A stretch of 64,000 bases of DNA, taken from positions 124,001-188,000 of the forward strand of contig LFLA01000014.1 of the NCBI GenBank assembly GCA_001542995.1, read 5' to 3'. The notes beneath the pieces were generated by a model. The model worked only from the letters and a program-made list of their open reading frames with translations, ran no database searches and was not told the origin of the DNA. The stretch is from Nitrospina sp. LS_NOB (GTDB lineage Bacteria; Nitrospinota; Nitrospinia; Nitrospinales; VA-1). Shown in pieces: positions 41,303 to 63,784 of the stretch (the first letter of the stretch is position 1; every line of letters starts with the position of its first letter). The translations under genes and the position numbers were made by a program.

Positions 41303-42091
41303 TCAGTTTAACATCAACGCACAACATTTTTTATATTTCTTGCCGGAACCGCAAGGACAAGGCTCATTGGGTTTAATTTTCCCTTCCTGCGCCTTCACTC
41401 CCGGTGTACTTTTCAACAATTCCTTACCAATTTTTTTTGCTTCCTTGTAACGCTTCTTCAACCTCTCATTAAAGTCCGGAATCCGCTGATTGATCGCAAT
41501 GAGCATATCGCTGTTGGAGGATTCCAGCCTGGCGTCTTCCTTTTCCCTCAGACGTTCATCCAAAAAATAGGTCGCAGAAAAGATCGGTGCCTGATCGGCA
41601 TTATCCAGCTCCAGCTTAAAAAAAGAAAGTTTCAAGCTGCGATTATCATTGCGCGGATCAATGTCGTAGGAGTCTTCTGCAAAATACTGGTCATTGTTGA
41701 AATTAAAATCGAGCATTCCCTTGTCTCCCGGAAATAATTCGAAAAAATTATAATAATTTCCCGGCTCGAATTCCAGGTAAGAGGTCGGATTTTTCTCGCC
41801 ATAGGCTTTCGCTTCCACAAGCCTCTGCTTGAAGAGGAGTATCAACTCATCTGGAGCGTTTTTAGCAAATCCCTTGGCGATTTGGGTTTGCACATCCGTC
41901 AAGCGTGGATGATCGGGAAGGGGATTAAAAGTTTTATTAAAATTAACCTGGAAAGCAAAAGCATTGTCCCGGTTGTCCTGGTCACGAAGACGAACCACAA
42001 CATAGTTGTATTCGTAAAAGGGATGGGTGTGATAAAAGTCTTCAAGGACATACGTGTTCTGGTAATTCTCTTCCTCGAACCGGTACGTCAT
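41303..42091 (-). CDS. SEC-C motif protein
   Basis: 262 residues. The C-terminus carries the zinc-binding SEC-C motif PCPCGSGKKYKKCC as in the tail of SecA. The first ~190 residues (WVLEDFYHTH-like start TYVLEDFYHTHPFYEYNYV) are a mixed alpha/beta region I do not recognise, followed by a helical segment before SEC-C. SEC-C can bind SecB or ribosomes; the role here is unknown. It sits 145 bases downstream of the DUF1566 genes. Confidence 0.7.
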   Translation of the reverse strand: MTYRFEEENYQNTYVLEDFYHTHPFYEYNYVVVRLRDQDNRDNAFAFQVNFNKTFNPLPDHPRLTDVQTQIAKGFAKNAPDELILLFKQRLVEAKAYGEKNPTSYLEFEPGNYYNFFELFPGDKGMLDFNFNNDQYFAEDSYDIDPRNDNRSLKLSFFKLELDNADQAPIFSATYFLDERLREKEDARLESSNSDMLIAINQRIPDFNERLKKRYKEAKKIGKELLKSTPGVKAQEGKIKPNEPCPCGSGKKYKKCCALMLN

Positions 42092-42235
42092 TTTCGAGTT
42101 TTCACTCTCCTGCTGATTAATTTCCCAATAACCTTCGATGACAATCCCCTTCCACTAAATATTTCAGATCACCGGATCTCTATCTGTTCACAAACCGTAT
42201 AAGTTTAAAAACCCAAACTTTTTCAATCCCACCCA

Positions 42236-42727
42236 TCAACGAGGAAGAGGAGAATTAGAAAAACCCGGAAATTTTGTAAATACGCCCTTTTCAGTTTCCT
42301 TTTTTTCGATATCTCGAACCGCACGCACAGAATCCTTAGTGATATCTTCCTTATGATTGGCATTCGCATGTCCATAACGGTAATAATAGATAGCAGCGGT
42401 AGCATGGGGAAGTTCATTAGCGGTCCAACTGGTGAAGCCCCCGCCGGGCGAGAAAGTCGGGCTTATGAAAACATCCATGCGATCCATATCCAGAATGACA
42501 TGATCTTCATCATAAAGGCTTTCAGCTTCCTCCAGGGTCGGCATTCTCCAGTCCCGGTGCCCGGCAAACTTATTAATGCCCAAGTCCTTGATATATTCCA
42601 TAGCCCTATACCAATTCACCCATTTGCTGGTATCCTGAAAAGAATCGGCCTGCTTCCACATCAGCCTGGTTTCCATATCGGTAACCGTACCGTCTCCATT
42701 ATCTACAAATCGTTTTTTCAATTCCAC
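42236..42727 (-). CDS. DUF1566 (Lcl_C) domain protein
   Basis: 163 residues, one domain, no signal peptide. The domain opens VDNGDGTVTDMETRLMWKQ, has FAGHRDWRMPTLEEAESLYD in the centre, the GGGFTSWTA core Trp, and DSVRAVRDIE at the end, the full set of DUF1566 landmarks. DUF1566 is a C-type-lectin-like fold seen in the C-terminus of the Legionella collagen-like adhesin; known members are usually secreted, unlike this one. Last of the reverse-strand DUF1566 array. Confidence 0.85.
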   Translation of the reverse strand: MELKKRFVDNGDGTVTDMETRLMWKQADSFQDTSKWVNWYRAMEYIKDLGINKFAGHRDWRMPTLEEAESLYDEDHVILDMDRMDVFISPTFSPGGGFTSWTANELPHATAAIYYYRYGHANANHKEDITKDSVRAVRDIEKKETEKGVFTKFPGFSNSPLPR

Positions 42728-42762
42728 GTTTTACTCTCCAACATTGATCTTAATTTTCAGTC

Positions 42763-43218
42763 CTAGTCATCCTTCTTTTCAATATCGCGGACCAGCCTGG
42801 AAGCCCCTCTCGACACGCGAAAAATGTCATCATAAATGGTAACTCCTTTGCGAAAATTCAGGCGCACACCTTGTATATTATGTCGCACATCGCTGGTCCA
42901 GCACAGAAACCCGCATCCTGGCTCAAACAAGCCGGACAGATAAATCTCCTGCCCCATATTATCGGAATTTTTCTGTGTCTTATCGAAGAGGCTTTTGGCT
43001 TCGCTTGCCGTTGGAAGTCTCCAATTGGAAAAACCTGCAAACCGCTTTCGGTTCAAACTTTCCGCAAACTCTTTGATCTGGCGCTGGGCCATCCATTTTC
43101 CTGCCATTTGCCAGGTATCTTTTTTAAGCCATAGGAGGCGCTTAGCGCCGTCAATCACCGTGTCGCTGTCTCCTGCCGCAAATCGCCCACCCACTTGCCC
43201 CGAGCCCTGTTCACCCAT
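42763..43218 (-). CDS. DUF1566 domain protein with divergent opening
   Basis: 151 residues, one domain. The opening is changed (DTVIDGAKRLLWLKKDTWQ, without DNGDGT), but FAGFSNWRLPTASEAKSLFD, FEPGCGFLCWTSD and SRLVRDIE are intact. No signal peptide. The start lies 5 bases after the stop of the two-domain gene upstream, so they are one transcript. The divergent start suggests a changed metal or ligand loop in this copy. Confidence 0.82.
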   Translation of the reverse strand: MGEQGSGQVGGRFAAGDSDTVIDGAKRLLWLKKDTWQMAGKWMAQRQIKEFAESLNRKRFAGFSNWRLPTASEAKSLFDKTQKNSDNMGQEIYLSGLFEPGCGFLCWTSDVRHNIQGVRLNFRKGVTIYDDIFRVSRGASRLVRDIEKKDD

Positions 43219-43223
43219 GACCT

Positions 43224-44108
43224 TTATGAGTCACCTTCCTGATTCCGGACTGCACGGACACCGTGACTACGCAAACCCATCTGGTGCCATTTATAGTCTC
43301 CATTATAATAATGGAAACGAATGGCCAATCCTTTATCCGACTTATTCAATGTTTTGGTCCAGCAGGTCAAACCACAGCCCGCAGGAAAACCTTTAGTTAT
43401 AAATACCGTGTCACCATAATTGTCCGTAACAGGATTAGAAGCGTCATAAATCGCCTGCGCTTCCTTTCGAGTTGGCATGCGCCAATCCTTATAACCCGCA
43501 AACTCTGTCCGGTTCAGTTGGATTAGGTAGGTCTTGGCTTCGTCCCAACTCACCCACTTATCCAAGTCCATATAGGAGTCCACCGACTTCCACATCAGAC
43601 CTGTCTTGTGGTCGGTAATAGTGCCGTCTTTATGCAGTTCAATGCGGACAAAATCAGGATCCTCTTCTTCCTGAATATTCTCTCGAACCAAGCGCACAGC
43701 ACTGGGGAAACCATCGTTTTCTTTAGCCAGCCAGAATTCATAATCGGATCGGTAGTCATAGGCCATGGCGGCCTTGGCGCCACGGGTTTGGCTGGTCCAG
43801 GTCGAGAATCCGCACCCAGAAGTGAAAACAGGATCGATATGGATTTCGCAGCCTTCTACATCTGTATTGCTGGCTGATCGATGAAAAAGGTATTTGGCTT
43901 CTGAAGCGGAGGGAATGCGCCAGTTGTTATACCCGGCGAATTTTTCCTCATTCATTGTTCGAGCTAACTCCTGGCTTTCATGCCAAGTGATCAAACGCCC
44001 CAACCTGACCCAGGTATCCTCTTTCATCCACATGAGGTTGTGCTTCGGATCCGTAACAGTATCATCTCCATTATCCAAATACTGCATTTCCACTTTGGTT
44101 TCCGTCAT
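43224..44108 (-). CDS. Two-domain DUF1566 protein
   Basis: 294 residues, two tandem DUF1566 domains. Domain 1 (~8-145): DNGDDTVTDPKHNLMWMKED, NNWRIPSASEAKYLF, GCGFSTWTSQ, SAVRLVRENI. Domain 2 (~152-292): HKDGTITDHKTGLMWKSVDS, FAGYKDWRMPTRKEAQAIYD, PAGCGLTCWTKT, HGVRAVRNQE. No signal peptide. Stop is 5 bases from the next gene, start 4 bases from the previous. The two halves are only moderately alike, so the duplication is old. Confidence 0.87.
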   Translation of the reverse strand: MTETKVEMQYLDNGDDTVTDPKHNLMWMKEDTWVRLGRLITWHESQELARTMNEEKFAGYNNWRIPSASEAKYLFHRSASNTDVEGCEIHIDPVFTSGCGFSTWTSQTRGAKAAMAYDYRSDYEFWLAKENDGFPSAVRLVRENIQEEEDPDFVRIELHKDGTITDHKTGLMWKSVDSYMDLDKWVSWDEAKTYLIQLNRTEFAGYKDWRMPTRKEAQAIYDASNPVTDNYGDTVFITKGFPAGCGLTCWTKTLNKSDKGLAIRFHYYNGDYKWHQMGLRSHGVRAVRNQEGDS

Positions 44109-44112: not shown

Positions 44113-44634
44113 TTATTTTCTGCGTTTGGGGGACGTGTATCTCATGACCTTATCTTTTCTACAGATACGAACCGAGCCAAAGCTATACTCTTCGACACTG
44201 ACAACCTTGCCTTCGCTGTAGTCAAACCTCGGTCTGCGGGTGGATGTATCCCCGGCAATCCAGGCGGTTTTAAACGCACCTTCTGGAAACACTGGATCAA
44301 GATGAAGGATCACCCCGCTCTTGCCTGGGTTTTCGCAGGACTCATCAAAAAGTGACGAGACTTCATCAATACTGGGCAGTCGCCAGTCATCAAACCCACC
44401 AATCTTTCTAAGATTCTTCCTATCGGCAAACTCCACCGCTTCATGCCAGTTGAAAAACTTACCCTTGTCCTGCCAGGAATCTTTTTTCAACCAGTACAGA
44501 CCGGTTTTGTTATCAAAAATAACATCACGGCCTTTCTCCACAAATCTTTTAGGTTTGTCATCCCGCTTGACCGGAGCCTGTTCTGTTTGCTTGACCAGAG
44601 ACTGATCTGAGTTTTCGGGAAGTTCTTCTGTCAT
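44113..44634 (-). CDS. DUF1566 domain protein with polar N-terminal tail
   Basis: 173 residues. A ~30-residue polar tail (TEELPENSDQSLVKQTEQ) precedes one domain: GRDVIFDNKTGLYWLKKDSW, IGGFDDWRLPSIDEVSSLFD, PEGAFKTAWIAGD, and a shortened, basic end. The usual DNGDGT opening is replaced and the GCG core reads GAF, so this copy is partly degenerate, although the frame is intact. Confidence 0.8.
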   Translation of the reverse strand: MTEELPENSDQSLVKQTEQAPVKRDDKPKRFVEKGRDVIFDNKTGLYWLKKDSWQDKGKFFNWHEAVEFADRKNLRKIGGFDDWRLPSIDEVSSLFDESCENPGKSGVILHLDPVFPEGAFKTAWIAGDTSTRRPRFDYSEGKVVSVEEYSFGSVRICRKDKVMRYTSPKRRK

Positions 44635-44726: not shown

Positions 44727-44954
44727 TTATATATTTGTGTCGCCAGTATATCCTATTTCTACGCTGTCTTCATCGACATTGACAATGACTGGAACGATAT
44801 ACTGGTCATTGGAATAATCCAATAATTGCTTCAAACCCTGTGGATCTTTATCAACATTAACGTAAACAAAAGACCTGTGTTGCTTTTTAAAATCAGCCAG
44901 GGCCTTTTGTGTGTGGGGGCAGTCGTCCTTGCCAAAAATCATATAATGGTTCAT
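44727..44954 (-). CDS. Glutaredoxin-like small thioredoxin-fold protein
   Basis: 75 residues. IFGKDDCPHTQKALADFKK gives a CPHT active site at the start of helix 1, and YIVPVIVNVD gives the cis-Pro before strand 3. The second active-site Cys is absent (C-P-H-T), so a monothiol mechanism is expected. It lies between DUF1566 genes and is presumably co-transcribed; the DUF1566 proteins contain several Cys, so thiol exchange on them is possible but unproven. Confidence 0.75.
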   Translation of the reverse strand: MNHYMIFGKDDCPHTQKALADFKKQHRSFVYVNVDKDPQGLKQLLDYSNDQYIVPVIVNVDEDSVEIGYTGDTNI

Positions 44955-44992: not shown

Positions 44993-45604
44993 TTAACGTT
45001 CGAATGTCTTGGTGTCCTTGCGCCACTCAGGTTCCCACTCCTCCTGAACCACATCACGGGTCACCCGACAATGAGAATATTCGTTGTCCTTATGCTCCCA
45101 CATATCGTTACCCGTCACAAAACTGAATTTTTGCGCATATTGTTGGTAGTCCGGTTTTTCTTCATAAGTCCAGGTATTGTGCCCGCCTCCCGGCTCAAAC
45201 AAATCTGAAATATGGATTTCGGCTTCAGCCTTATCAAAATTCGACTGGGTAAACGAAAAAAGGCTTTTGGCCTCTTCCCCGCTGGGCAGCCTCCAATCAT
45301 CAAAGCCGGCGAATTTTTTGTCATTCAACATTTCACAATAATCATGGGCCTCGAACCAGGTGATTCCATAACTGTACTCTTTGTATGAATCATCCTTTTT
45401 CCACATCAGATTGGACAGGGTATCACTGATGGTGCCATCGCCGTTATCGACGAAATCAGGAACTTCCTCTTCCACCACAGCAACATCTTCTTCGTCCTCA
45501 TCGCCCCATTCATCCTCGCCAACCCATTCAGTCTCCGGCTCATTTTCTGAAGTCTCCGGATCTACAGCATCATCAAATTCGGTTGGGTCATCATTTTCAG
45601 ACAT
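44993..45604 (-). CDS. DUF1566 protein with long acidic N-terminal tail
   Basis: 203 residues from ATG 45604 (MSENDDPTEF). Residues 1-~60 are extremely acidic and end DVAVVEEEVPDF, almost the same phrase as in the NHL protein at 61988-63589 (EVAVVEEVPE). A single domain follows: VDNGDGTISDTLSNLMWKKD, FAGFDDWRLPSGEEAKSLF, EPGGGHNTWTYE. The C-terminus (CRVTRDVVQEEWEPEWR) is extended. No signal peptide. Confidence 0.84.
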   Translation of the reverse strand: MSENDDPTEFDDAVDPETSENEPETEWVGEDEWGDEDEEDVAVVEEEVPDFVDNGDGTISDTLSNLMWKKDDSYKEYSYGITWFEAHDYCEMLNDKKFAGFDDWRLPSGEEAKSLFSFTQSNFDKAEAEIHISDLFEPGGGHNTWTYEEKPDYQQYAQKFSFVTGNDMWEHKDNEYSHCRVTRDVVQEEWEPEWRKDTKTFER

Positions 45605-45635: not shown

Positions 45636-46079
45636 TCAATCCAGGTCCCTGACCATACGCACCGCAGTGCCAGTGGTCGACACCGACTGGTCCACACAAA
45701 CCTCTCTCATATTCGGGAAATAGCTTTTCCACGCATAAGAATCGTACCGGGTTTCAGAAGTCCACACACAGGTTTCACCGCCAGCCTGATAATTGGAAAC
45801 CCGCCGTGCCGGCTTTTTGGGTAAGTTCAGGAACACATCCCGGTAATCATTTTGGTTACGAAATAACGAGCGCACCTCACTTTTGGTCGGTAGCCTCCAG
45901 TCGTTATAACCCAAATAATTTTGTTCATTGCAGGCCTGCACATATGCATGGCCTTCATCCCAGTTGAGCCATTTTCCCAATTCCTGCCGGGAATCTCTCA
46001 ACACCCACATCAAATCATTATCTGGATCTTCGACCGTACCATTATCCTTCTTGACCCAACCACATTTTGATTCCGCCAC
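45636..46079 (-). CDS. DUF1566 domain protein
   Basis: 147 residues, one domain beginning almost at the N-terminus: KKDNGTVEDPDNDLMWVLRD, YNDWRLPTKSEVRSLF, ETCVWTSETR and AVRMVRDLD as the very last residues. No tail, no signal peptide, the minimal form of the family in this cluster. 31-base gap to the next gene on the same strand. Confidence 0.84.
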   Translation of the reverse strand: MAESKCGWVKKDNGTVEDPDNDLMWVLRDSRQELGKWLNWDEGHAYVQACNEQNYLGYNDWRLPTKSEVRSLFRNQNDYRDVFLNLPKKPARRVSNYQAGGETCVWTSETRYDSYAWKSYFPNMREVCVDQSVSTTGTAVRMVRDLD

Positions 46080-46425: not shown

Positions 46426-46920
46426 CTATCGCCAACCACCCCCCTGAGTGATTTTATCTCGGACTTCCGGCACATGGGCGATTTTGGCTTTTGAGTTGTC
46501 AAATTCACCGCGCACGAGACGGGCACTGGAATTGAGGATATCATCGACCTCCTTATGCCCACCAGCCCCACTACTGAAAGAATAAACATAGGCCGTGACC
46601 TTGCCCCGGGTATTGCTGGTCCAGGTATCGTGACCACAACCTTCGGTGAATACTGAATCGATGTGTACGACCATGTCGTACTTGTCTTTCAAGGTTTTCT
46701 CTATGTCATAAAGGGAGTGCGCCTCTCTCTTATTGGGAAACCGCCAGTCCTGATAACCGGCAAAAGACCCTTCATTTTGTTTTCCCAAATATTTTAAAGC
46801 CGCTGTGTAACTGACAAACTTCTGGAGGTCCAGATAGGAGTCGTTTTTCTTCCACATCAACTGGGTCAGACTGTCGGTTACCGTATCATCCCCATTATCC
46901 ACAAACCTGTTCTCGCTCAT
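46426..46920 (-). CDS. DUF1566 domain protein
   Basis: 164 residues, one domain: FVDNGDDTVTDSLTQLMWKK, FAGYQDWRFPNKREAHSLYD, EGCGHDTWTSNTRG, SSARLVRGEF, then a ~25-residue polar tail. No signal peptide. First DUF1566 gene after the terminator of the secreted-protein gene, so it may carry its own promoter and begin the downstream transcript. The gap 46080-46425 between it and the next gene holds no recognised gene. Confidence 0.85.
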   Translation of the reverse strand: MSENRFVDNGDDTVTDSLTQLMWKKNDSYLDLQKFVSYTAALKYLGKQNEGSFAGYQDWRFPNKREAHSLYDIEKTLKDKYDMVVHIDSVFTEGCGHDTWTSNTRGKVTAYVYSFSSGAGGHKEVDDILNSSARLVRGEFDNSKAKIAHVPEVRDKITQGGGWR

Positions 46921-47031: not shown

Positions 47032-47547
47032 TTAACGGTTTGCTTCAGATGTTGCACCACCACCACCATCGGCATCCATACTACCCCTTACGCTGAAGAG
47101 ACCGCGCTCGGTACCCTCAGGCTGACCCATACCCGGCTCCATATACGTAGACGGCATTACATGGTCCAAATGGTAATCGACCTGATAGGTCTTTTGAGAA
47201 CCAGCATCTATTTTCCAGTCATGGTGCGCTTGGGATTCTCGCTTTTGACAGTTCAACTGGATTGCTCCGGGACCTTTGTTGGCAAAAGTGGATTTCGGCT
47301 GCAGAGCATGAGTTAAATACCCTCCTGGAGGCAGCGTCCGGTCAAAATTCTTGTTCCAGGAATATCCAATCGGCCCAACATTGATGTGTACTGTTGTTGC
47401 CTTGTCTTCACTCAGGTTAACAATATTCCAACCCGCATTTAGACAAACGCTAGATTTTCCAGAAGCGATGGTGGAAACGCCTGCGCTTGCAACAGCAACA
47501 GAAAATACAAAAAATACTGCGAATAAAACTAAAACGGTCTTTCTCAT
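47032..47547 (-). CDS. Small secreted protein within the DUF1566 cluster
   Basis: 171 residues from ATG 47547, with gggggag 5 bases upstream. Signal peptide VLVLFAVFFVFSVAVASA with cleavage after ASA. The mature part (STIASGKSSVCLNAGWNIVN ... IQLNCQKRESQAHHDWKID) is a beta-rich domain with two Cys that could form a disulfide, and the tail is Gly/Asp-rich. No family recognised. Its strong ribosome site and very strong terminator suggest abundant, monocistronic expression, for instance a surface or periplasmic structural protein. Confidence 0.75.
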   Translation of the reverse strand: MRKTVLVLFAVFFVFSVAVASAGVSTIASGKSSVCLNAGWNIVNLSEDKATTVHINVGPIGYSWNKNFDRTLPPGGYLTHALQPKSTFANKGPGAIQLNCQKRESQAHHDWKIDAGSQKTYQVDYHLDHVMPSTYMEPGMGQPEGTERGLFSVRGSMDADGGGGATSEANR

Positions 47548-47887: not shown

Positions 47888-48283
47888 TTAAACTCTGAAC
47901 TTCAAGGACGTCAGCTTTATCAGGTCCGTAGAGTTTCTGAGGGCTTTTTCACCATCCTCGGAAATGTCATTGACCACCAACTGCAAACTGCGCAGGCTGG
48001 GTAAATTTTTCGACGTCGCAAGATAGGTGGCCCCCACATCACTGATACTGTTTGAAGCCAAATTGAGAGTTCTCAGATTGGCAAACATTGTTGATTCGGC
48101 AATGGCCTTGACCCCTTCATCGCCAATACTATTCTGCGAAAGATCCAAAGCCCGGATGCCCTTCATAGTTTCATGCTGAGCCAACTCTTTCGCACCCACC
48201 TCTCTCAAGAATTGCGCCTTCAAGCTCAGCACTTGCCCGTCCTTGCTCAGCCGGTCCCGGATCAACTCATCCAAATTTGCCAT
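47888..48283 (-). CDS. Leucine-rich-repeat protein (ribonuclease-inhibitor type)
   Basis: 131 residues with three to four LRRs of the RI type: IRALDLSQNSIGDEGVKAI, LRTLNLASNSISDVGATYL, LRSLQLVVNDISEDGEKAL, then LTSLKFRV. No signal peptide. The N-terminal ~35 residues are helical (MANLDELIRDRLSKDGQ). Such small LRR proteins act as protein-binding scaffolds. It starts 12 bases downstream of the TPR gene stop, within the radical SAM-TPR-LRR run. Confidence 0.82.
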   Translation of the reverse strand: MANLDELIRDRLSKDGQVLSLKAQFLREVGAKELAQHETMKGIRALDLSQNSIGDEGVKAIAESTMFANLRTLNLASNSISDVGATYLATSKNLPSLRSLQLVVNDISEDGEKALRNSTDLIKLTSLKFRV

Positions 48284-48295: not shown

Positions 48296-49120
48296 CTACC
48301 CGGTACCCGGGATTTCCTTAGCTACAAATCCGTATTCATCGTAGATGCTGTAACCTTCCTGAAGCATCTTTTTCCCATATTTGACCATCAGGTTGGCCTG
48401 GCTGTGACTAGGATCAATATCGACAGTTTTCTTCAAATACTTCAATCCCTTTTTGATATCTTTGACTTCGTCGCCATAATTATCAATTTGCCGGGCTTTA
48501 TCAAACAAATCGGAGGCCCACTTGTAATAAACCGTGGCAATTTGTTGAGGGGCATTCTGGCTGATATAGTCGATAATTTCTTCATCCGCCTTCAACTTCG
48601 GAATATCCTGGACAGCCGCCTCAAACTCGCGCAGGGGAATGGCATAATCGTCATCCGTCACCGAAGAAATCTGTGCGCCGGCCCTGTGCTGGGAATGCAG
48701 ACCCACAGAACTTTTAACCACTGTGGACTGAATCCCCGACATCAACTGGTGGTAATAAAGGTTGCCGATGCCGAAATGGATGATGGCGCTGAATTCCTGT
48801 TTTACATCCAGCAACAAGGCCTGCTCAAAAGATTCCTGGGCATCGTCCATCTGCCCCAGTTCCGAGAGGGCTTCACCCATATTGTAATGATGGACACAGT
48901 TATCCGGCTCTTCCTCAATCTGGCGCTTGAATTCCTGGATCTGGGCTTCAAGGTCAAACTCAACCTCTTCCTCCTCCTCGTCAAACTCCGAAACTTCAGC
49001 CTCTTCAGAGTCTTCAGCCGCAAGAGACTGGTCAGCCTCAAGCTGGGAAGGGTCTTCAGCATTTTCCAGCGGTTGCCCGGCTTCGTCCTCCGATTCAGTT
49101 TTTTTTTCGTCTTCACTCAT
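48296..49120 (-). CDS. TPR protein with acidic N-terminal tail
   Basis: 274 residues from ATG 49120 (MSEDEKKTES). Residues 1-~65 are mostly Glu/Asp/Ser, then TPR-type helices (CVHHYNMGEALSELGQMDDA, FEQALLLD) and a C-terminal TPR pair (GLKYLKKTVDIDPSHSQANL). The middle segment (SSVGLHSQHRAGAQISSVTD) is not TPR-like. No signal peptide. Placed 2 bases after the radical SAM stop, so tightly linked to it; possibly it presents the substrate to that enzyme. Confidence 0.82.
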   Translation of the reverse strand: MSEDEKKTESEDEAGQPLENAEDPSQLEADQSLAAEDSEEAEVSEFDEEEEEVEFDLEAQIQEFKRQIEEEPDNCVHHYNMGEALSELGQMDDAQESFEQALLLDVKQEFSAIIHFGIGNLYYHQLMSGIQSTVVKSSVGLHSQHRAGAQISSVTDDDYAIPLREFEAAVQDIPKLKADEEIIDYISQNAPQQIATVYYKWASDLFDKARQIDNYGDEVKDIKKGLKYLKKTVDIDPSHSQANLMVKYGKKMLQEGYSIYDEYGFVAKEIPGTG

Positions 49121-49122: not shown

Positions 49123-50142
49123 TCAGACACAATAAGGGGGAATCCCTTCTTCCACCCATTCTCCCGCTTTGCCATTGTTTATGTTCTGACGATTTTTTAT
49201 CGCGCCTGAAACCATCTTTTTCCGAGACACTTCTACCTGCTTCATAATTTCATCCGGCGAATCGTTTAAGAGATTGCCAAACTTGGGCTGACACTTTAGA
49301 TTGCCCACATCACAACAAGGAGTTATCTCCCCGGTTTGCTGGACGGTGACAATCTCGATGGTACCACGAGGAATGGTGCATTCCAGATGGTTAATATCCC
49401 GGGGGAAAGGCTGGGCATTCATGGCCCGCTCGCCATTTTTATCGACATAAAACCCCGGGATCATATTCAGCCCAAAAGTAAAGTTGTCCGTACAAATATA
49501 ATTTTCAACGCCTTCCATATGCTTTAAAAATGCGCCTTCATCACATTCCGGATTTTCTCGCAAAAGACTTTCAAGCTTCGCGCGATAAATCCCAAGTAGA
49601 GACAGGACGGAATCAAATTTCTTTTCCTGTTCCCCAAAAAACGTGAGCAAAATTTTGATCTGGCTCAACAAGTCCGACACTTTTTCAAAGATCATGTTGA
49701 CGATCAATTCGTCCTGCAGTCCCAGAATCTCTTTAAGAAGTGGTTTTTGTCGCGACTCCCAAACGGTTGGGTACAACGTGAAGTCCACCCGTCCGGATAA
49801 TTTCATGATTTCAACCAACCTTAGCCACCGCTGAGATTTTGCTGAGCTAATGTCCAAGTTGGTGTGGATGCGTACATTTGGCGTCAGCGTCCTGAATATC
49901 TTAAAAATTTCAACGATATGAGGATTTTGTGAAGGCTCCCCACCGGTCAGATTAATTTCCCTCTTGGCCAACTCGTGAAACACCTCCAACTGGAGGATTT
50001 TATCCACCATGACCTGAGCCTGCTCCGGCATTAAATGCCAATCGCTCTTGGGTATCTTGCTAAGTGGTTCGTAGACATGACAATACTGGCACTCATCTCG
50101 CACATAGCGATTACAATTGGCTTCGGCAAAAATATTTATCAT
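49123..50142 (-). CDS. Radical SAM enzyme with CX7CX2C motif (paralogue 1)
   Basis: 339 residues. The N-terminus NIFAEANCNRYVRDECQYCH has cysteines spaced C-X7-C-X2-C instead of CX3CX2C. EINLTGGEPSQNP supplies the SAM-binding GGE, and IHTNLDI the next strand. Near the C-terminus PCCDVGNLKC gives three more Cys, as in auxiliary-cluster (SPASM-like) enzymes, and the protein ends GIPPYC. Closely related to the gene at 57904-58911. Function unknown; modification of a protein or peptide from this locus is inferred from the auxiliary Cys and the neighbours. Confidence 0.82.
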   Translation of the reverse strand: MINIFAEANCNRYVRDECQYCHVYEPLSKIPKSDWHLMPEQAQVMVDKILQLEVFHELAKREINLTGGEPSQNPHIVEIFKIFRTLTPNVRIHTNLDISSAKSQRWLRLVEIMKLSGRVDFTLYPTVWESRQKPLLKEILGLQDELIVNMIFEKVSDLLSQIKILLTFFGEQEKKFDSVLSLLGIYRAKLESLLRENPECDEGAFLKHMEGVENYICTDNFTFGLNMIPGFYVDKNGERAMNAQPFPRDINHLECTIPRGTIEIVTVQQTGEITPCCDVGNLKCQPKFGNLLNDSPDEIMKQVEVSRKKMVSGAIKNRQNINNGKAGEWVEEGIPPYCV

Positions 50143-50215: not shown

Positions 50216-50860
50216 CTATTGAGTAGTATTCTCTGAATCTGTATCCAGAACAGCCCGAACCGGCCTGATGGTTGACAAAGAAAGGCTCGGCCCCCCTCTC
50301 ATGCTGGGGTAAGTTTTGCCCCGGATATAATTAAATCCCCATGCATACTTGTCCTTATAAACCTCACTGGACCAGAAACAACAGCTGGAATAACCGAAGA
50401 TGGGGTCAATATGAATCACATTTTCGGTCCAATAATATTTCCAGGGGACATCCTTACCTTCCTCGTAGAGGAATTCCAGTTCTTCACGGGTCGGCAAGCG
50501 CCAGTCCGAATAACTGGCGAAGGCTTCCTTATTGAAGTTTTCGAGGTAAGTTTGCGCGTCATCCCAGTTGATCCAAATCTTTTTTTCCTGGTAGATATCA
50601 ATCTGCTTCCACATCAACTTTTTTTTCAAGTCGGTCACAGTTCCATCTTTATTATCCCGGAATCTCGGATCATTAGAAGGCTTCAGTTCCGGCTTTTCTG
50701 CAGTGAGGGAAAGAATCTGGCCGCCAAAAATCTCATCGGTACTGCTGTTGCCAGAATCAGCCTGTACCGCACTCCCCGCACACACTGCCAACAGCAAAAA
50801 AGCAACCCGCAGGGGTTGGATCAAAAGGCGAAAAAAACGAATCATGTCTTTTGGAATCAT
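50216..50860 (-). CDS. Exported DUF1566 domain protein
   Basis: 214 residues. The only DUF1566 protein here with a clear signal peptide (LIQPLRVAFLLLAVCAGSAVQA). After ~35 linker residues the domain follows: DNKDGTVTDLKKKLMWKQID, FASYSDWRLPTREELEFLYE, GYSSCCFWSSEVYKD, TIRPVRAVLD. A unique CC pair is present in the core. Probably periplasmic. It lies between the radical SAM and NHL genes. Confidence 0.85.
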   Translation of the reverse strand: MIPKDMIRFFRLLIQPLRVAFLLLAVCAGSAVQADSGNSSTDEIFGGQILSLTAEKPELKPSNDPRFRDNKDGTVTDLKKKLMWKQIDIYQEKKIWINWDDAQTYLENFNKEAFASYSDWRLPTREELEFLYEEGKDVPWKYYWTENVIHIDPIFGYSSCCFWSSEVYKDKYAWGFNYIRGKTYPSMRGGPSLSLSTIRPVRAVLDTDSENTTQ

Positions 50861-51892: not shown

Positions 51893-51941
51893 CAAAACAA
51901 ACCTCTCTTCCCAAAACCGGGAAAAAATCAAGCTCCAATAA

Positions 51942-52684: not shown

Positions 52685-52785
52685 CGCAAGTCTCCTTCCT
52701 GACAAGGGTAAAACAATAAACCAATACTTTTAAAAGAGTTCTTTGGGAATTTACCCGTAAGTATAATCCTTTTTCCGGGAAAGTG

Positions 52786-55125: not shown

Positions 55126-55206
55126 TGTGGGGGATGACCTAGAATTTAGAACATCACCAATCAGATCAAACCGAATTTAGAACCTTTTACAGAGAGCGAT
55201 CCTATT

Positions 55207-56349
55207 ATGGGCGAGGCAGGCAAACCGACAGACTGGATCACGATGAAAATCGATCCTGAGATTTTTGAAGAGTTGGGGGTCCGCGACCCTGAAGAGACCA
55301 AGCGGGAAATGGCAATCACCAAAAAAACCCGTCAGGTCAATAAGGAGTTGAAAACCGACCCCGACAATGTGGATCTTCAGTTAGAACTGGCCACCTTGAT
55401 GATAGATGGTGCCAATTATGAAGAAGCCATCAAAAAACTCATAGCCATCCGCAACAAAGCCCCGAAAAACTCCCGGGTCTACAAACTGCTCGGCACTGCA
55501 TACGTGCTGTTCAATCATGAAGAGGAAGCCCTGATTGAATTGAATCGGGCCTGCGAACTGGACCCCACCGATGTAGAAAACTACTTCAATCTCGGAGGTC
55601 TCTATTTGCTCAGGGACATGTTCCCAAATGCTGCGGATGCGTTTGAAAAAGTCATTGAACTGGACCCTACCGACACAACAGCCTATGCCAACCTTGCGGC
55701 GGCTTATGACATGCTCAAATTTTATGACAAGGAAATCATCGCCCTCAGAAAAGTGTTGATGTTCAAACCGGAAGACAAGGAACTGCGCTCGGCACTGTCC
55801 AACGCTTATTTTCATGCTGGACGTCATGAAGACGCCATTGATGCCGCCCTGTGCGTGGTTGATATTGACGACAAAGACCCGCAAGGCTATTGCAACCTGG
55901 GCAGTTGCTATTCCGTGCGTAATATGATCGATGATGCCATCGCAGCTTTCAAAAAAGCCAGCGAGCTGGCACCGGACTATTCCCTGCCGCACACCAATCT
56001 GGGGACCCTTTATGCCAATATGGGTCGGCCGGAAACCGCTATCAAATCGTTCAAAACAGCGGTGACCCTGAACTCGGCGGACGCAGGAGCCTGGATGAAC
56101 CTGTATACCTGCTATAAAGATGTCGGGTTGATGGAAGACTCGCAGGCGGCTTACCGGAAGTATGAAGCGTTGATGGAAGGACCCGCGCTTGCTTCGACCG
56201 GGGCAACGGAAGGAGAGAACCCCTCAAATATCCCCGGCGGTGTTTCCCAAACCAGCAAATACGCCGGAGGTGGAGACATGGATGGAAACCAGCCTGGTAT
56301 GGAATCGTTGGCGGATGCGGATGCAGATGCAGATGCAGATTCCCGATAG
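55207..56349 (+). CDS. TPR protein with Asp-Ala repeat tail
   Basis: 380 residues, no signal peptide. About eight TPR repeats (e.g. YKLLGTAYVLFNHEEEALIE, YFNLGGLYLLRDMFPNAADA, YANLAAAYDMLKFYDKEIIA, HTNLGTLYANMGRPETAIKS) between residues 45 and 325. The C-terminus is disordered and ends in ADADADADADSR, encoded by a tandem gcggat/gcagat hexamer that could vary in copy number. Likely a scaffold or substrate-presenting partner for the neighbouring methyltransferase and radical SAM enzymes; in anammox NXR loci a TPR protein (NXR-T) promotes enzyme assembly. Confidence 0.87.
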   Translation: MGEAGKPTDWITMKIDPEIFEELGVRDPEETKREMAITKKTRQVNKELKTDPDNVDLQLELATLMIDGANYEEAIKKLIAIRNKAPKNSRVYKLLGTAYVLFNHEEEALIELNRACELDPTDVENYFNLGGLYLLRDMFPNAADAFEKVIELDPTDTTAYANLAAAYDMLKFYDKEIIALRKVLMFKPEDKELRSALSNAYFHAGRHEDAIDAALCVVDIDDKDPQGYCNLGSCYSVRNMIDDAIAAFKKASELAPDYSLPHTNLGTLYANMGRPETAIKSFKTAVTLNSADAGAWMNLYTCYKDVGLMEDSQAAYRKYEALMEGPALASTGATEGENPSNIPGGVSQTSKYAGGGDMDGNQPGMESLADADADADADSR

Positions 56350-56368
56350 GTTCCCTTGAAATCCTATC

Positions 56369-57760
56369 ATGACCCATCCTCCCCAAAACCTGGTTGCGCT
56401 TGGGGATTTCAAGCCTTCCGATACTTGGCAGACCCATGTCAATGCCATTTTCTATGGCATCAAGGGTCCCGAAATCCACAACCATTTTCAAACTTATGTG
56501 AGCCTGGACTACCGTCTGGCTCACGCGCTCGCCAATGATTTTTATGCCAAAGCCCGAGGCGGTGAGCGTCCTGAAAATGATGTCTGGATGGTGCAGGAAT
56601 GGGGAGTGGGCAATGGCAACCTGGCTTCGTGTTTTCTCAGCCACCTGCGTGAAATAGACAGCGAGAATGAAGTCTATCCTTTTATCTATTACATTCTTTG
56701 CGATGAGTCCGAAGAAATTTTAAAAGGCGTGCGGGCCAACCTCCGCTTACAAGAACACGCCGGGAAATTTTCCACGGTTCGCGTTCATGCCGAACACCTG
56801 GACTGTTTCCGGCCTCACTCCGTAGCAAAAATCATATCCAACGAAATCTGGGACGACCTGGCAACCAAAGTTCTGCTGAAGCATCAGGGTCTTTTTTATG
56901 AGGAATATCTGTGCCCCTTCCTGAATCCGGAAGCACTCCCTGCCGAAGCAGACGCTTTCGTTGAACAATTTGAAAACAGGGATCTGGAAAAACTCGCCCA
57001 GCTTCCCAACTTTCTCAACACCATTCACTGGGAACGGGATTTTCAAAGGGTGGACCTGGATGACTGGCCCTTTGCGGAAATCTTGAAGGCTCACACCAAA
57101 GATTTTAAAGATGAAATTCCCATGCCCATTAATACCGGAGCTTTTTCCGCTATCGAAAAAGCAAAAGAACTTTTAGGCCCTAACAATTTCGGTTACACCA
57201 GTTTTGACTACGGCATGAAAGAAATTCAGGATCTCAATCAGGAAGGACGACCCTATTTTAATTTATACGGCGGTCAATACACGTTCATGGTGAACTTTCC
57301 CCTGCTTGAAAATATTGGCCGGTCTTTAGGATTTACCGAAATCACCCGGGAATACCAGAATCAGTTTGTCAAAAAAGACCTCGGATCAGCAGTCGTCAGT
57401 CTGGTGGATCTGGTGCAAAACCATCCGCAAGTGGTCAACATGGCTCCGTGGGACAGAGACATTCTGATGCTCGGAACACTCAATGCTCTCAATACCGTTT
57501 ATCGAAGTCCCTACTCTGGAAAACTCAACTACCCGGCACTTGAAGGAACTCCCAAAAAACAAAGAAAGCAAATCGCCCAACTGGCTAAGAACCTTAGTAG
57601 CCGGGGTGTTCCCGATACTGTAGCCTATGTCACCCGCGAGGAAGTTCTGGCTGCCTTGAAACCTCTTAGAAAACTGGGCTACAGGGAAAAAGATATTCAA
57701 TCCGCTTTTCAATCCCCTCCACTCCCTGTTTCATTCGTTCACATTCAATTCAACCCATAG
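56369..57760 (+). CDS. MidA/NDUFAF7-like SAM-dependent methyltransferase
   Basis: 463 residues. VQEWGVGNGNLASCFLSHL is the SAM-binding motif I of the MidA (DUF185) family and KIISNEIWDDLATKV the matching NE-(F/W)-D post-motif; LCDESEEILKG is the acidic ribose-binding strand. The family includes NDUFAF7, which dimethylates an arginine of a complex I subunit during assembly. This protein is diverged and has a long C-terminal half. It starts 19 bases after the TPR stop, so a protein-methylating role within this locus is likely but inferred. Confidence 0.75.
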   Translation: MTHPPQNLVALGDFKPSDTWQTHVNAIFYGIKGPEIHNHFQTYVSLDYRLAHALANDFYAKARGGERPENDVWMVQEWGVGNGNLASCFLSHLREIDSENEVYPFIYYILCDESEEILKGVRANLRLQEHAGKFSTVRVHAEHLDCFRPHSVAKIISNEIWDDLATKVLLKHQGLFYEEYLCPFLNPEALPAEADAFVEQFENRDLEKLAQLPNFLNTIHWERDFQRVDLDDWPFAEILKAHTKDFKDEIPMPINTGAFSAIEKAKELLGPNNFGYTSFDYGMKEIQDLNQEGRPYFNLYGGQYTFMVNFPLLENIGRSLGFTEITREYQNQFVKKDLGSAVVSLVDLVQNHPQVVNMAPWDRDILMLGTLNALNTVYRSPYSGKLNYPALEGTPKKQRKQIAQLAKNLSSRGVPDTVAYVTREEVLAALKPLRKLGYREKDIQSAFQSPPLPVSFVHIQFNP

Positions 57761-57870
57761 CGGGGCACCCTCGCAAGTAATGAGCGCTGGCTTATCAAGC
57801 CGAGATAACCTTTTCTACCCAAGTAGGTTATTGCACATTGCCCCCACGGCTAGCGGCTGGTAGCATGGGG
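57759..57870. repeat. Copy of dispersed repeat family A
   Basis: gcgctggcttatcaagccga followed by gataaccttttc, attgcacattgcccccacgg and ctagcggctgg. The core tatcaagccgagataac is shared with the copy at 38838. Confidence 0.7.
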
Positions 57871-57903
57871 TTTCTTAGTTAAAATTCCGGAGTTTTTTGA
57901 TCG

Positions 57904-58911
57904 ATGCTCAGCGTTTTTGTCGAAACCAGTTGCAACCGCTACAACAGGGACGAATGCGAGTTCTGCCACGTGTATGAACCGCTGATGGCGGACCCGGTCT
58001 CTGAATGGCACCTGACTGTGGAGCAAGCCCGGGTGATGGTAGAAAAAATCCAGCGTGTCGAGGTGCTTAACACCCTGGCCCAGCAGGAGATCAACCTGAC
58101 CGGCGGTGAGGCCTCACAAAACCCGGACATTGTCGAAATTTGCAAGGTGTTCCAAACCGTCACACCGCATGTTTGCCTGCACACCAATCTCGACATACTT
58201 TCAGAAACATCCAAACGCTGGCAAAGATTGCTGGGGATCATGGAGCTCGGCGGCCGGGTGGATATCACGCTTTATCCCACTGCATGGGAGAAGTCGCAGA
58301 AACATTTTCTTGGGGCTCTATTAGAAAAACAGAACAACCTGATCATCAATGTCGTTTATGAAAGTCTGGAGCATTTAAAACTTCAGATCGACCTTCTGCT
58401 CGATTTTTTTAAGGAACAGGAACATGTCACGCAACTGCTCGAAACCTACTCAACAAAAGTGGAGACGCTTTTGAGCGAGTACCCCAACTGCGATGAGAAA
58501 TTGTTCACCACGCATTTTGGAGATACCGAAGCCTTTGCCCGCAAACCGGAACTCACTGTAGGATTGAGTTTGCTACCGGCGTTCAATATTGATGACAACG
58601 GCCAGCGGTCTATGGCGTCGATGGCTTTTCCCAGAGACCAATACCTCATTGGCTGTCCCGCCGCACGAGGCTCGATAGACATCATGACCATTCAACAAAA
58701 TGGTGAAATGACGCCCTGCTGTGATGTTGGCAATTTGAAATGCAAACCCGCGTTCGGCAACCTGTTAATGGATTCGCCGGAAGAAATCGTGGAAAAAATG
58801 CAAGGGTCCATGAAAGTACTGGCATCAGGAATCCGCAAAAATCATGAAAACCAGACAACAGGGAAAGCCGGGCATCTGGTGGAAGAAGGTATCCCTCCCT
58901 ATTGCAATTAA
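57904..58911 (+). CDS. Radical SAM enzyme with CX7CX2C motif (paralogue 2)
   Basis: 335 residues. Same architecture as 49123-50142: FVETSCNRYNRDECEFCHVY (C-X7-C-X2-C), EINLTGGEASQNPD, LHTNLDI, C-terminal TPCCDVGNLKCKPAFGN and ending GIPPYCN. The two copies align over their whole length, with the central region (150-220) most different, so they probably act on different but related substrates. Preceded by a repeat, followed by another. No recognised ribosome site except weak ggag 16 bases upstream. Confidence 0.82.
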   Translation: MLSVFVETSCNRYNRDECEFCHVYEPLMADPVSEWHLTVEQARVMVEKIQRVEVLNTLAQQEINLTGGEASQNPDIVEICKVFQTVTPHVCLHTNLDILSETSKRWQRLLGIMELGGRVDITLYPTAWEKSQKHFLGALLEKQNNLIINVVYESLEHLKLQIDLLLDFFKEQEHVTQLLETYSTKVETLLSEYPNCDEKLFTTHFGDTEAFARKPELTVGLSLLPAFNIDDNGQRSMASMAFPRDQYLIGCPAARGSIDIMTIQQNGEMTPCCDVGNLKCKPAFGNLLMDSPEEIVEKMQGSMKVLASGIRKNHENQTTGKAGHLVEEGIPPYCN

Positions 58912-60425: not shown

Positions 60426-60454
60426 ATGGTTAGGAATATAGTCGATTAGTGGTC

Positions 60455-61240: not shown

Positions 61241-61303
61241 TGCCCCCCTCCAAAAAAGTCAGCAAAACCCTTTCTAAAAATCCCTTGGTATAAATTAGCG
61301 GAT

Positions 61304-61855: not shown

Positions 61856-61987
61856 GACAAATTAATAACCGGTTTGAAGACCAGACAAGCTAAAGACCCC
61901 CCCCCGGCACACGCACACCACCAGAGGGATTTAAAACTGACTATACTGAGCAATAGGAATCCTTCATTGCCGCCGGTCGCAGGCCGG

Positions 61988-63589
61988 TTAGGCTGAGGGA
62001 AGTTCTCCGGGAGGCACTTCTTCCTCTTCTTCCTCCAGGAAATCGTCGTCATCCTCCTCCTCACCGATCAATAGATTTTCATCATCGACCTTGAGTTCTT
62101 CAAACTCTTCTTCCTCTTCTGCTTCTTTCGGATAGGGAAGTTCGTTCCAGACCACGATGCGGGAATTGCTCCGGTCACAGATAAAAAGCCTGAATTTGGG
62201 TTGCGGCTCCTCTTCGACAGATTCGCCTTCGGCTGCTACGAGAGCGGTTTCCTCATTATCGTCATCATCATCCGCCATGGGAATGCCACGAAATTCTTCC
62301 TCCTCCTCTTCCTCATCGATCAACAACAAACCATAAGGATCGTTCAAAGTGCAGTTAGAGGCCTCATCCAAATCGCGGTTCACCTGATTTTCAGTGAACG
62401 TAGCCTGGCCAAACACCAAGTCAGCAGGTTGTCCATTTTCGGTGGGAAGTTCTTTCCAATACAGGACACGGTTATTACCGGTATCGGAGACAAACAACCC
62501 AGCCTTGCCGAACGCCACATCAGTAGGAAAATACATGCCATCTGCGGATGGACGATGGTGCCCATTGTTCCGGTTCGGCTCGCGGTTGACAAAATCCTTT
62601 TGTCCAAGCACCACATCGGCAGCAACCCCTGTCTCTCTGGGAATTTTATTCCAGATCAACACCCGGTTGTTACCCTGATCCACCACGATCACCCGCTCAC
62701 CCTCGGCATCAAAATGTACGCCTGTTGGAAAGCTGAGTGTGTCCTGACCTACATTATCGAAATCACCCTGGTTGGGCCAGCGTTCATCCATTCCTTTTTG
62801 CCCCAGAGAAACGTCGGCGTTCCAACCATCACTAAAAGGAATTTTGTTCCAGATTAAAACCCGGTGATTGTCCTTATCCGCGACAAACACATGCTGGTCA
62901 TCGCCAGAGTGGAGGCCCATGGAGAAAAACAACGAACCCGAACCGACAAACCCCCGGCGGTTGGCTTCGTTATCATCCAGGTTATCCTGTCCAAGCACCA
63001 GGCTCGGAACCTCGCCATCGTCTGAGGGAATTCCATTCCACCTCAATACCCGATGATTGCCACTATCCACCACATAAAGTTTTCCATCGATCACATCAAT
63101 ACCGGCGGGTTGGGAGAGGGTATCTTCTTCCGACTTACTGATGGTGAATCCATCCAGACTTTCGTCACCCAATCCAGAAGTCATTTCATCCAGAGTTGTA
63201 GTCATACCCCTGTTTTCAAGGCAGTCGGCAAAATCCTCCTGCCCGAGCACCAGTGATGACGGCTCACCATTTTCTTCGGGGAACTGTTCCCAAATCAATA
63301 CCCGGTGATTTCCTCTGTCAGATACAAACAGCATATCGCCATAGACCGCGCAAAATTGAGGTTCACAAAGCGTGTTGTCGCCAGGATCATCCGCACCCCG
63401 GTTAGACTGGGACATGGAAAAATCTCCCTGGCCGATAACCAGATAAGCTCCTGTCTCCGGCACTTCCTCTACAACTGCAACCTCTTCTTCAAACTCATCA
63501 TCTCCGTCGACTTCATCCAAATCCATTTCTTCGTCTTCGGATACACCCAACGAATCCTCGGTATCTTCCATTTCTTTATCATCTGACAT
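61988..63589 (-). CDS. NHL-repeat beta-propeller protein with acidic tails at both ends
   Basis: 533 residues from ATG 63589 (MSDDKEMEDTEDS), ggag upstream. Residues 1-~55 are acidic and end EEEVAVVEEVPETG. Then six NHL-type repeats, each LVLGQxxF/xx followed by VxDxGNxRVLxW: LFVSDRGNHRVLIWEQFP, LYVVDSGNHRVLRWNGIP, VFVADKDNHRVLIWNKIP, VIVVDQGNNRVLIWNKIP, LFVSDTGNNRVLYWKELP, and FICDRSNSRIVVWNELP. A ~100-residue acidic insert precedes the last repeat and the C-terminus is a second acidic tail. No signal peptide. Next upstream gene is the NxrC-like gene. Confidence 0.88.
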   Translation of the reverse strand: MSDDKEMEDTEDSLGVSEDEEMDLDEVDGDDEFEEEVAVVEEVPETGAYLVIGQGDFSMSQSNRGADDPGDNTLCEPQFCAVYGDMLFVSDRGNHRVLIWEQFPEENGEPSSLVLGQEDFADCLENRGMTTTLDEMTSGLGDESLDGFTISKSEEDTLSQPAGIDVIDGKLYVVDSGNHRVLRWNGIPSDDGEVPSLVLGQDNLDDNEANRRGFVGSGSLFFSMGLHSGDDQHVFVADKDNHRVLIWNKIPFSDGWNADVSLGQKGMDERWPNQGDFDNVGQDTLSFPTGVHFDAEGERVIVVDQGNNRVLIWNKIPRETGVAADVVLGQKDFVNREPNRNNGHHRPSADGMYFPTDVAFGKAGLFVSDTGNNRVLYWKELPTENGQPADLVFGQATFTENQVNRDLDEASNCTLNDPYGLLLIDEEEEEEEFRGIPMADDDDDNEETALVAAEGESVEEEPQPKFRLFICDRSNSRIVVWNELPYPKEAEEEEEFEELKVDDENLLIGEEEDDDDFLEEEEEEVPPGELPSA

Positions 63590-63645
63590 GAAACAATTCT
63601 CCAAATATATAGATTACCAATTCAAACTTTTAATTTCTGTATTGC

Positions 63646-63782
63646 ACCCCCTAGCGGGGGACGCTTTGAAAACCCCTTATTACCTTTATGCCCCGAAGGG
63701 GTAAATTGGCAAGGGCAAATTATCCAAGATAACTCTTTGCTCGCCAAACGAGTCATTGCAGTCTACCACTGGCAGTTACGCC
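63646..63782. repeat. Copy of dispersed repeat family A between the NHL and NxrC-like genes
   Basis: caccccctagcgggggacg, ccccgaaggggtaaattggc, ccaagataactctttgctcg and cattgcagt. The block gataactctttgct matches the copy at 38838. Confidence 0.65.
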
Positions 63783-63784
63783 AA

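Follow-up and report, generated by a model that had tools for sequence, protein, structure and literature searches.

What kind of function could hold together, across a whole bacterial order, some twenty genes that combine lectin-fold, propeller and repeat proteins with methyl-transfer enzymes? The question is raised by a locus of Nitrospina sp. LS_NOB, which we studied in a 64,000-nucleotide stretch of contig LFLA01000014.1 (positions 124,001 to 188,000, or G000:C3:124001-188000 in our numbering of genomes and contigs; hereafter the window) belonging to an assembly of 2.65 Mb that is 98.8% complete. The gene cluster noted earlier at 41303-63604 of the window is real, and Pfam and NCBIfam scans recovered every gene class that the initial annotation had named from the sequence: eight Lcl_C (formerly DUF1566) genes with nine domains, two NHL propellers, two TPR proteins, one LRR protein, a glutaredoxin, a secreted protein, a B12-type radical S-adenosylmethionine (SAM) enzyme, a MidA-like methyltransferase and two radical SAM paralogues (rSAM1 and rSAM2) with a C-X7-C-X2-C motif. 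We divide it into unit I, a minus-strand run from SECC (41303) to U214 (~52690) with a PpiC gene on its left; unit II, a plus-strand run at 53241-58911; and unit III, formed by NHL2 and an alt_NxrC gene just past the right window edge. The domain families themselves are known, while their combination matches no named system to our knowledge, and the locus is undescribed in the open literature as judged by titles and the starts of abstracts (long result lists were seen partly, and subscription papers lay outside the search).

Our reading, which we hold tentatively and regard as possible rather than probable, is that the whole is a lineage-specific, mainly cytoplasmic assembly that would support biogenesis of the nitrite-oxidation machinery, with the methyl-transfer enzymes acting on the assembly or on its client. 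The earlier interpretation, a cytoplasmic assembly modified by radical SAM and methyl enzymes and perhaps serving nitrite oxidoreductase (NXR) maturation or a membrane organelle, is partly supported by what follows, and a link to NXR maturation is possible.

Gene order across the Nitrospinales

Conservation was judged from genomic neighbourhoods of relatives (22 from 20 genomes, then 15 from 13 genomes, with G016 in both sets), annotated by blastp against the window's own proteins. Unit I is spanned from U214 to SECC in 20 genomes of four families f1-f4, including the window's own (G000, G002, G003, G005, G008, G010, G015, G017, G020, G021, G022, G025, G028, G032, G037, G038, G039, G043, G045 and G048). 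Its gene order, with all eight Lcl genes and with rSAM1 as an optional member, is kept in 19 of these 20 and reads U214, NHL1, Lcl8, TPR1, LRR, secreted protein, Lcl7, Lcl6, Lcl5, glutaredoxin, Lcl4, Lcl3, Lcl2, Lcl1, SECC; the expectation that the gene set stays together in relatives was thus borne out when checked. The exception is G038 (family f3), where Lcl7 was not found in the block and Lcl2 and Lcl3 are swapped. Partly covered genomes match the same order as far as they are covered, except G016, and the PpiC gene adjoins unit I in relatives too. Of the 20 genomes, 17 have the B12 radical SAM gene no more than about 6.5 kb from U214. In G045 the contig stops at this point, and G038 and G025 carry the gene on another contig, with unit I still intact. 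With gene order and one-to-one orthology preserved in four families, the arrangement appears to be far from chance.

The locus genes of G016 are scattered over a single 2.5 Mb contig (G016:C1) and cut mid-gene, with NHL1 stopping after residue 132 and the B12 radical SAM after residue 176 (a further 100 kb was examined at two places). This contig looks as if short contigs had been strung together, true rearrangement being the alternative; since mid-gene cuts point to the assembly, we excluded G016 from the gene-order judgement and did not use it as a case of a truly broken block.

Conserved order could also arise where genes of separate function are kept adjacent by slow genome rearrangement, so that no single system exists, and the serA/serC neighbours and parts of the right flank are indeed syntenic in relatives as well. 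Such an origin fits poorly with a unit I that is unbroken even in genomes with relocated units II and III (G038, G025) and with Lcl paralogues that hold their individual positions, and we consider it very unlikely.

Lcl_C domains and the putative assembly

All eight Lcl genes, each on the minus strand, score above the curated Pfam cut-off of 34.9 bits for Lcl_C (PF07603): Lcl1 (42236..42727, 8.5e-19), Lcl2 (42763..43218, 1.7e-14), Lcl3 (43224..44108, two domains matched in two stretches), Lcl4 (44113..44634, 6.4e-16), Lcl5 (44993..45604, 7.6e-19), Lcl6 (45636..46079, 1.6e-19), Lcl7 (46426..46920, 6.4e-19) and Lcl8 (50216..50860, 9.6e-20). In a maximum-likelihood tree built from 113 domains, of which 98 belong to the locus in 11 genomes of the four families and 15 lie elsewhere in G000, the locus domains form nine clades, one per position and two of them from Lcl3, each supported; the 15 non-locus domains fall outside these clades, on long branches that leave their placement unsure. 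With one clade per position, the nine distinct Lcl domains had most likely diverged from one another by the time of the order's ancestor.

The Lcl_C domain is at the same time a general expansion in G000 and G038, which hold 24 and 27 matches. The initial annotation had held that DUF1566 genes scattered without the radical SAM genes would speak against a common system, and this is partly what we see: 15 of the 24 matches in G000 lie outside the locus, on nine contigs, and blastp against the locus proteins found no copy of the locus radical SAMs in the neighbourhoods of these genes; the nine locus domains nevertheless form clades of their own.

A profile of the locus Lcl proteins weakly matches the structure of the Legionella collagen-like protein Lcl (8q4e, E 0.0058), which belongs to the same Pfam family and has a C-type-lectin-like fold. 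The C-terminal domain of that protein is described as trimeric, C-type-lectin-like and binding sulphated glycosaminoglycans, with the expected Ca2+/carbohydrate motifs absent (PMC11162425), so that Lcl_C domains can oligomerise. Legionella Lcl is an extracellular adhesin with a collagen region, whereas the locus Lcls are fixed, distinct paralogues, seven of the eight without an export signal. The glycosaminoglycan binding, the resemblance to C-type lectin domains and the weak profile match would also suit ligand binding or sensing, in which each Lcl binds a different sugar or metabolite and the NHL, TPR and LRR proteins relay the signal, for example in glycogen or polysaccharide handling. However, the conserved block contains no recognised glycan enzyme, kinase or regulator, and the Ca2+/carbohydrate motifs are absent even in the Legionella protein, which leaves sensing quite unlikely in our view.

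Export was judged by a crude hydropathy test for N-terminal hydrophobic stretches, not by SignalP. These stretches are present in the small secreted protein (25 of 26 orthologues) and in Lcl8 (23 of 27), with none in the families of Lcl1-7, NHL1, NHL2, TPR1, TPR2 or LRR; the only other orthologues flagged, one of rSAM1, two of rSAM2 and one of U214, perhaps have misplaced starts. The locus products thus appear largely non-exported by this test, seven of the eight Lcl genes included, in keeping with the earlier remark that most of them lack signal peptides. The small secreted protein (47032..47547, minus strand) has a conserved Cys pair and two His and matched no family in either Pfam or NCBIfam; its start codon, like that of Lcl5, was placed by comparison with orthologues.

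The remaining members of unit I, all on the minus strand, are rich in protein-binding folds. NHL1 (50897..51904, start approximate; PF01436 4.3e-37) is a propeller with a conserved LSWEPDWAP C-terminal tail, TPR1 (48296..49120; TPR_1 1.2e-08) carries a long acidic N-terminal tail, and the LRR protein (47888..48283; LRR_6 4.8e-14) has 131 aa. SECC (41303..42091) ends in a SEC-C zinc motif (PF02810), its main part being of no recognised kind. The 75-aa glutaredoxin-like protein (44727..44954; PF00462 9.7e-08) has a single invariant Cys (C12), and the PpiC-type peptidyl-prolyl isomerase (40637..41215; PF00639 3.2e-23) forms the left edge next to serA. U214 (52061..52690, start approximate) is a helical protein outside known families, with invariant residues H92, H93, C105, H111 and C199; it had no Pfam match, and its best PDB sequence match had an E of 0.15. 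Its AlphaFold model is middling (predicted local distance difference test, pLDDT, 69.4), with a best Foldseek E of 1.1, and structure comparison returned mostly helical bundles at Z of 10.1 or less, among them a hemerythrin HHE chain (Z 7.4) and YtfE (6.0). We did not take a function from these matches, which may reflect only a common helical arrangement.

Acidic N-terminal stretches with a net charge of about -13 to -34 were found in the orthologues examined of TPR1 (10), Lcl5 (10) and NHL2 (7), those of NHL2 having an acidic C-terminal stretch too, and these tails are probably disordered. Lcl5 also ends in a WEPEW tail, and the motif WEPxW is conserved in 25 of 27 NHL1 and 22 of 23 Lcl5 orthologues. 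We considered this as the sign of a common binding partner and rejected it as not statistically special, because a blind scan gave 17 window pairs (some overlapping, the NHL1/Lcl5 pair included) in which unrelated families share four conserved residues. The genome contains 11 copies of the corresponding DNA pattern, two inside the locus, and two copies of a reversed control pattern.

Fixed position, the fixed identity of nine paralogues, a unit I intact amid changed surroundings and the abundance of protein-binding folds together suggest that the locus proteins form one multi-protein assembly. Its core would be a cytoplasmic hetero-oligomer in which nine C-type-lectin-fold Lcl_C domains associate with NHL1, TPR1, LRR and U214. 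An assembly of this kind could equally serve as an NXR-independent cytoplasmic structure (a lattice, filament, granule coat or condensate), with methylation tuning its packing and the acidic tails keeping it soluble or phase-separated. Nine fixed lectin-fold domains beside repeat scaffolds speak for such a structure, as do the acidic stretches of TPR1, Lcl5 and NHL2 and the lack of recognised enzymes in unit I except glutaredoxin, PpiC and the accessory rSAM1; two exported members (the secreted protein and Lcl8) and the linkage to alt_NxrC, however, are ill suited to a purely internal structure, and we regard it as doubtful, if a serious contender.

Methyl-transfer and radical SAM enzymes

Unit II, on the plus strand, opens with the B12-type radical SAM gene (53241..55037, its start placed by alignment within an open reading frame from 53103). 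The protein matches PF04055 at 7.5e-13, the B12-binding family PF02310 at 22.4 bits, below the 32.1 cut-off, and a single PDB sequence at 0.001, OxsB (E 7.3e-08). It is matched at 1e-60 in 65 of the 77 genomes of the phylum, and because paralogues lie elsewhere in the genome, these wide matches do not serve as locus markers. TPR2 (55207..56349) follows, with TPR family matches. Its best NCBIfam match is the magnetosome TPR protein MamA at 153.3 bits, yet this is below the equivalog cut-off of 200; no magnetosome genes were recognised among the locus proteins scanned with Pfam and NCBIfam, and a magnetosome cluster was rejected on the score of TPR2. Anti-phage defence was likewise set aside, with no relevant PADLOC match for the nine locus proteins scanned: nine of ten window proteins were unmatched at 1e-5, and the two model matches of SECC are confined to its C-terminal motif region.

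The MidA-like SAM methyltransferase (56369..57760; PF02636 2.5e-05) scores 24.3 bits, marginally above the 23.3 cut-off, and found no solved relative at E<=0.01. MidA/NDUFAF7 performs arginine methylation of a complex I subunit. The locus protein shares with this family a glycine-rich SAM motif, EWGVGNGNLA, and a SNEIWDDL stretch, both of which we take to resemble MidA motifs, and differs in its marginal Pfam score. The protein was found in 56 of 64 genomes of the order and in none of 323 others. Among the eight genomes of the order without a match are G024 (97% complete) and G016, two members of genus g2, where the gene may have been lost. U214 has a similar distribution (56 of 64 genomes of the order, none of 56 others), and the eight assemblies of the order without a match to it are 57-83% complete.

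Since two SAM-dependent enzymes pair here with a TPR protein, unit II is most simply read as a modifying module: the B12 radical SAM and the MidA-like enzyme would methylate side chains of the assembly or of its client, with TPR2 as their adaptor. That methylation acts on the assembly is a weaker suggestion than the assembly itself.

The initial annotation counted three radical SAM enzymes as part of the system, and this holds for the B12 type but not for rSAM1 (49123..50142, minus strand) and its paralogue rSAM2 (57904..58911, plus strand), both of which are missing in seven of the 20 spanned loci (G017, G022, G025, G037, G038, G039, G045). Both score below the PF04055 cut-off (26.7 and 21.1 vs 29.5 bits), their cluster-binding Cys triad (C10, C18, C21, in CX7CX2C spacing) is invariant, and a profile search found no relative among PDB sequences at 0.1. 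A model of rSAM2 (pLDDT 76.6, predicted template modelling score 0.79) aligns with SPASM/twitch radical SAM enzymes, namely SkfB (Z 13.2, 222 residues, rmsd 3.3), anSMEcpe (13.2, 244, 3.9), SuiB (13.1, 240, 4.2), BlsE (13.0, 224, 3.7) and PqqE (13.0, 221, 3.5), followed by MoaA (Z 12.3) and viperins (Z 11.5). The modelled fold and the Cys triad are thus those of SPASM/twitch-type radical SAM enzymes, as predicted for rSAM2 and, by paralogy, for rSAM1. These matches do not point to a single substrate class, because several of the enzymes act on peptides or proteins but BlsE, MoaA and viperins do not. Six further cysteines of rSAM2 (C196, C251, C272, C273, C280, C334), candidate ligands of an auxiliary cluster, are at least 95% conserved in 18 orthologues, with low model confidence around most of them.

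The two paralogues were matched in 32 of 60 relatives, all within the order, and a contig scan with rSAM1 gave 13 loci of 13 in Nitrospina, Nitrospinaceae or Nitrospinota. The position of rSAM1 varies, from the Lcl8/TPR1 gap in genus g1 to the gap between LRR and the secreted protein in G021 and G023. That they recur in the locus suggests a role that is linked but optional, in which some genera would have a further radical SAM, of SPASM type, acting on the same proteins. In G044 and G048 (family f2, one genus), rSAM1 lies away from unit I and directly downstream of a QueF gene (L066:18274-19772 in G044, the copy on which Pfam was run); a queuosine enzyme is a candidate role from this adjacency in two genomes of one genus, and we did not use it.

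Enzymes of these types raise the question of whether the locus modifies a ribosomally synthesised and post-translationally modified peptide (RiPP), with the radical SAMs maturing a small locus protein and the other products acting as scaffolds. The best NCBIfam match of the B12 radical SAM is a RiPP C-methyltransferase, TIGR03975, at 120 bits against a cut-off of 282, and the best-aligned structures for rSAM2 (SkfB, anSME, SuiB, BlsE and PqqE) are tied within 1 Z. The absence of both rSAM1 and rSAM2 from the seven loci listed above argues against such a pathway, as does the lack of any recognised precursor peptide or peptide transporter, for which no systematic precursor search was made; we give it little credence.

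The pairing of NHL and B12 radical SAM genes recurs in G000. At L154:9444-15609 (G000:C24), an NHL protein of 724 aa whose N-terminus is hydrophobic is encoded next to a tandem pair of B12 radical SAM paralogues, which share 30% and 49% identity with the locus enzyme; a multihaem cytochrome gene follows after 1.3 kb.

The possible link to nitrite oxidation

NHL2 (61988..63589, minus strand, start approximate; PF01436 3.5e-21), the propeller with strongly acidic tails at both ends, is the point at which the locus touches a haem protein. The initial annotation saw an NxrC-like gene here, and an EB_dh haem gene does adjoin NHL2, but it is of the dihaem alt_NxrC type, and nearly all of it falls outside the window on the right (EB_dh match at C3:187830-188483; its 3' end, on the minus strand, overlaps the window at 63785..64000). 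The encoded 532-aa protein has two CXXCH motifs and an EB_dh domain. Two haem c motifs with a haem b (EB_dh) domain is the architecture described for alt_NxrC of Nitrospina gracilis (PMC3578206), and the neighbour of NHL2 would accordingly be a dihaem alt_NxrC-type gene, placed next to the cytoplasmic set and not within it. It is one of seven EB_dh matches in G000, six of which are above the cut-off. The pair is stable: of the 21 relatives that have NHL2, 20 have alt_NxrC next to it and the remaining one, G030, has a contig end there, and in G025 both genes are at the opposite end of unit I.

G000 has a second alt_NxrC-like dihaem gene, which stands in a row with genes for an exported Lcl protein and an exported protein of 440 aa (L155:2546-8988, G000:C24); an LRR paralogue is 3.5 kb away. 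The same trio occurs in G038 (L176:4919-8425, G038:C49), and thus in two families of the order; its 440-aa protein matched no Pfam family.

The order-wide coincidence of locus and NXR, the alt_NxrC linkage and the NHL/TPR precedent of a hydrogenase-maturation operon lead us to favour a client in nitrite oxidation. At E<=1e-100, nxrA was matched in 31 of 120 genomes, 27 of them in the order and four outside it (G055, G059, G099, G104). Within the order 26 genomes have nxrA at 92% identity or more and G021 has 55%, and the restriction of U214 and the MidA-like protein to the order coincides with that of nxrA at 92% identity or more. The precedent is the extended hyp operon of Nostoc (asr0689-alr0693), where NHL and TPR proteins and a NifU/thioredoxin-type protein are reported among the hydrogenase-maturation genes (PMC2408588). 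The likeness has limits: the enzyme is different, the part of that paper drawn on here names no Lcl_C, LRR, radical SAM or MidA-like protein, and the Nostoc genes lie inside the maturation operon, whereas no NXR gene adjoins the Nitrospinales locus.

Several observations weigh against such a client or against a tightly bound set. The distance to nxrABC, which the initial annotation proposed to check, gave no linkage: nxrA, nxrB and nxrC of G000 are on contig C10 and the locus on C3. NHL2 and alt_NxrC were not found in 40 kb of G043 and 35 kb of G039 near unit II, nor in two 20 kb stretches of G038. Unit II is split in G025, where the MidA-like gene is on the unit I contig about 20 kb from NHL2, and the SEC-C motif is absent at the C-terminus in five of ten SECC orthologues examined. 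The four nxrA-like genomes outside the order have best copies of 42-59% identity, U214 and the MidA-like protein found no match in any genome outside the order (a count that does not itemise G099 and G104), and G099 and G104 have no Lcl_C match at all; because NXR-like genomes there are without the marker proteins, NXR can do without the locus elsewhere. In addition, nxrA was detected in only 27 of the 64 genomes of the order, and assembly gaps explain two of the absences. Finally, since locus and NXR are both found in one order, co-distribution cannot separate function from ancestry.

Absence of NXR from order members was itself followed with an nxrB search of 20 chosen genomes, 13 of which were order genomes without an nxrA match, and nxrB was also negative in 11 of these 13. 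In G028 and G038 a contig end cuts through nxrB, of whose end 26 and 31 residues remain about 1 kb and 0.13 kb upstream of nxrC, so that the missing nxrAB reflects an assembly gap; these two breaks weaken NXR absence as evidence against a link. Elsewhere, nxrC of G024 is near a contig end with nxrB absent there, G032 has only a more distant NxrC-like gene, and G016 has nxrC with no nxrAB within 8.7 kb upstream. A gain of nxrAB early within the later-branching Nitrospinia has been proposed (PMC10203281), a timing that is compatible with the locus arising in the same ancestry, and shared ancestry alone would give the same pattern.

NXR-T of anammox bacteria, named in the initial annotation as a TPR protein, is described as a haem-binding four-helix bundle with a predicted signal sequence (PMC8387239), unlike TPR1 and TPR2, which have TPR-repeat matches and no N-terminal hydrophobic stretch. 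The isomerase-like folding factors that it placed in the same loci also found no echo, the term 'isomerase' being absent from a term search of PMC8387239.

Taken as a working scheme, the assembly would act as a biogenesis platform for the periplasmic nitrite-oxidation machinery (NXR, the alt_NxrC haem protein, or both), and the glutaredoxin and the PpiC isomerase would help cofactor loading or folding before export. The choice of NXR or alt_NxrC as the client is the weakest step, resting on circumstantial evidence. In its most specific form, the proposal would be a new type of machine fixed in the Nitrospinales ancestor, a methylated heteromer of nine lectin-fold domains with propeller, TPR and LRR arms that forms an intracellular platform or scaffold for the NXR system; so complete a picture is unlikely to be right.

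Three other features of the region lie apart from the conserved units. Between rSAM2 and NHL2, 59171-61240 holds a metallo-beta-lactamase-fold gene that is divided between two neighbouring frames (59171-59890, with an RMMBL match below cut-off, and 59892-60425) and a 261-aa gene; because none of these has a counterpart in the 21 other fetched neighbourhoods, the segment looks like a local, perhaps recent and decaying insertion. A Type I restriction enzyme R subunit with an N-terminal nucleotidyltransferase domain is encoded at 20544-23681 of the window. In the right flank, at about 191.6-192.8 kb of C3, a 387-aa radical SAM gene, presumably lysine 2,3-aminomutase-like, has relatives of 75-94% identity in 10 other neighbourhoods.

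That an order keeps a block of about twenty genes largely intact, with markers unique among the searched genomes, points to a function at the centre of this lineage's biology that has yet to be described. Lcl_C, a widespread domain of unclear role, also gains an intracellular context here. Nitrospinae are reported to be the most abundant known nitrite oxidisers of the ocean (PMC8026999). Should NXR or alt_NxrC be its client, the locus would reveal how one of the sea's dominant nitrite oxidisers assembles its key enzyme; if it is not linked to NXR, it would represent a new multi-subunit bacterial assembly.

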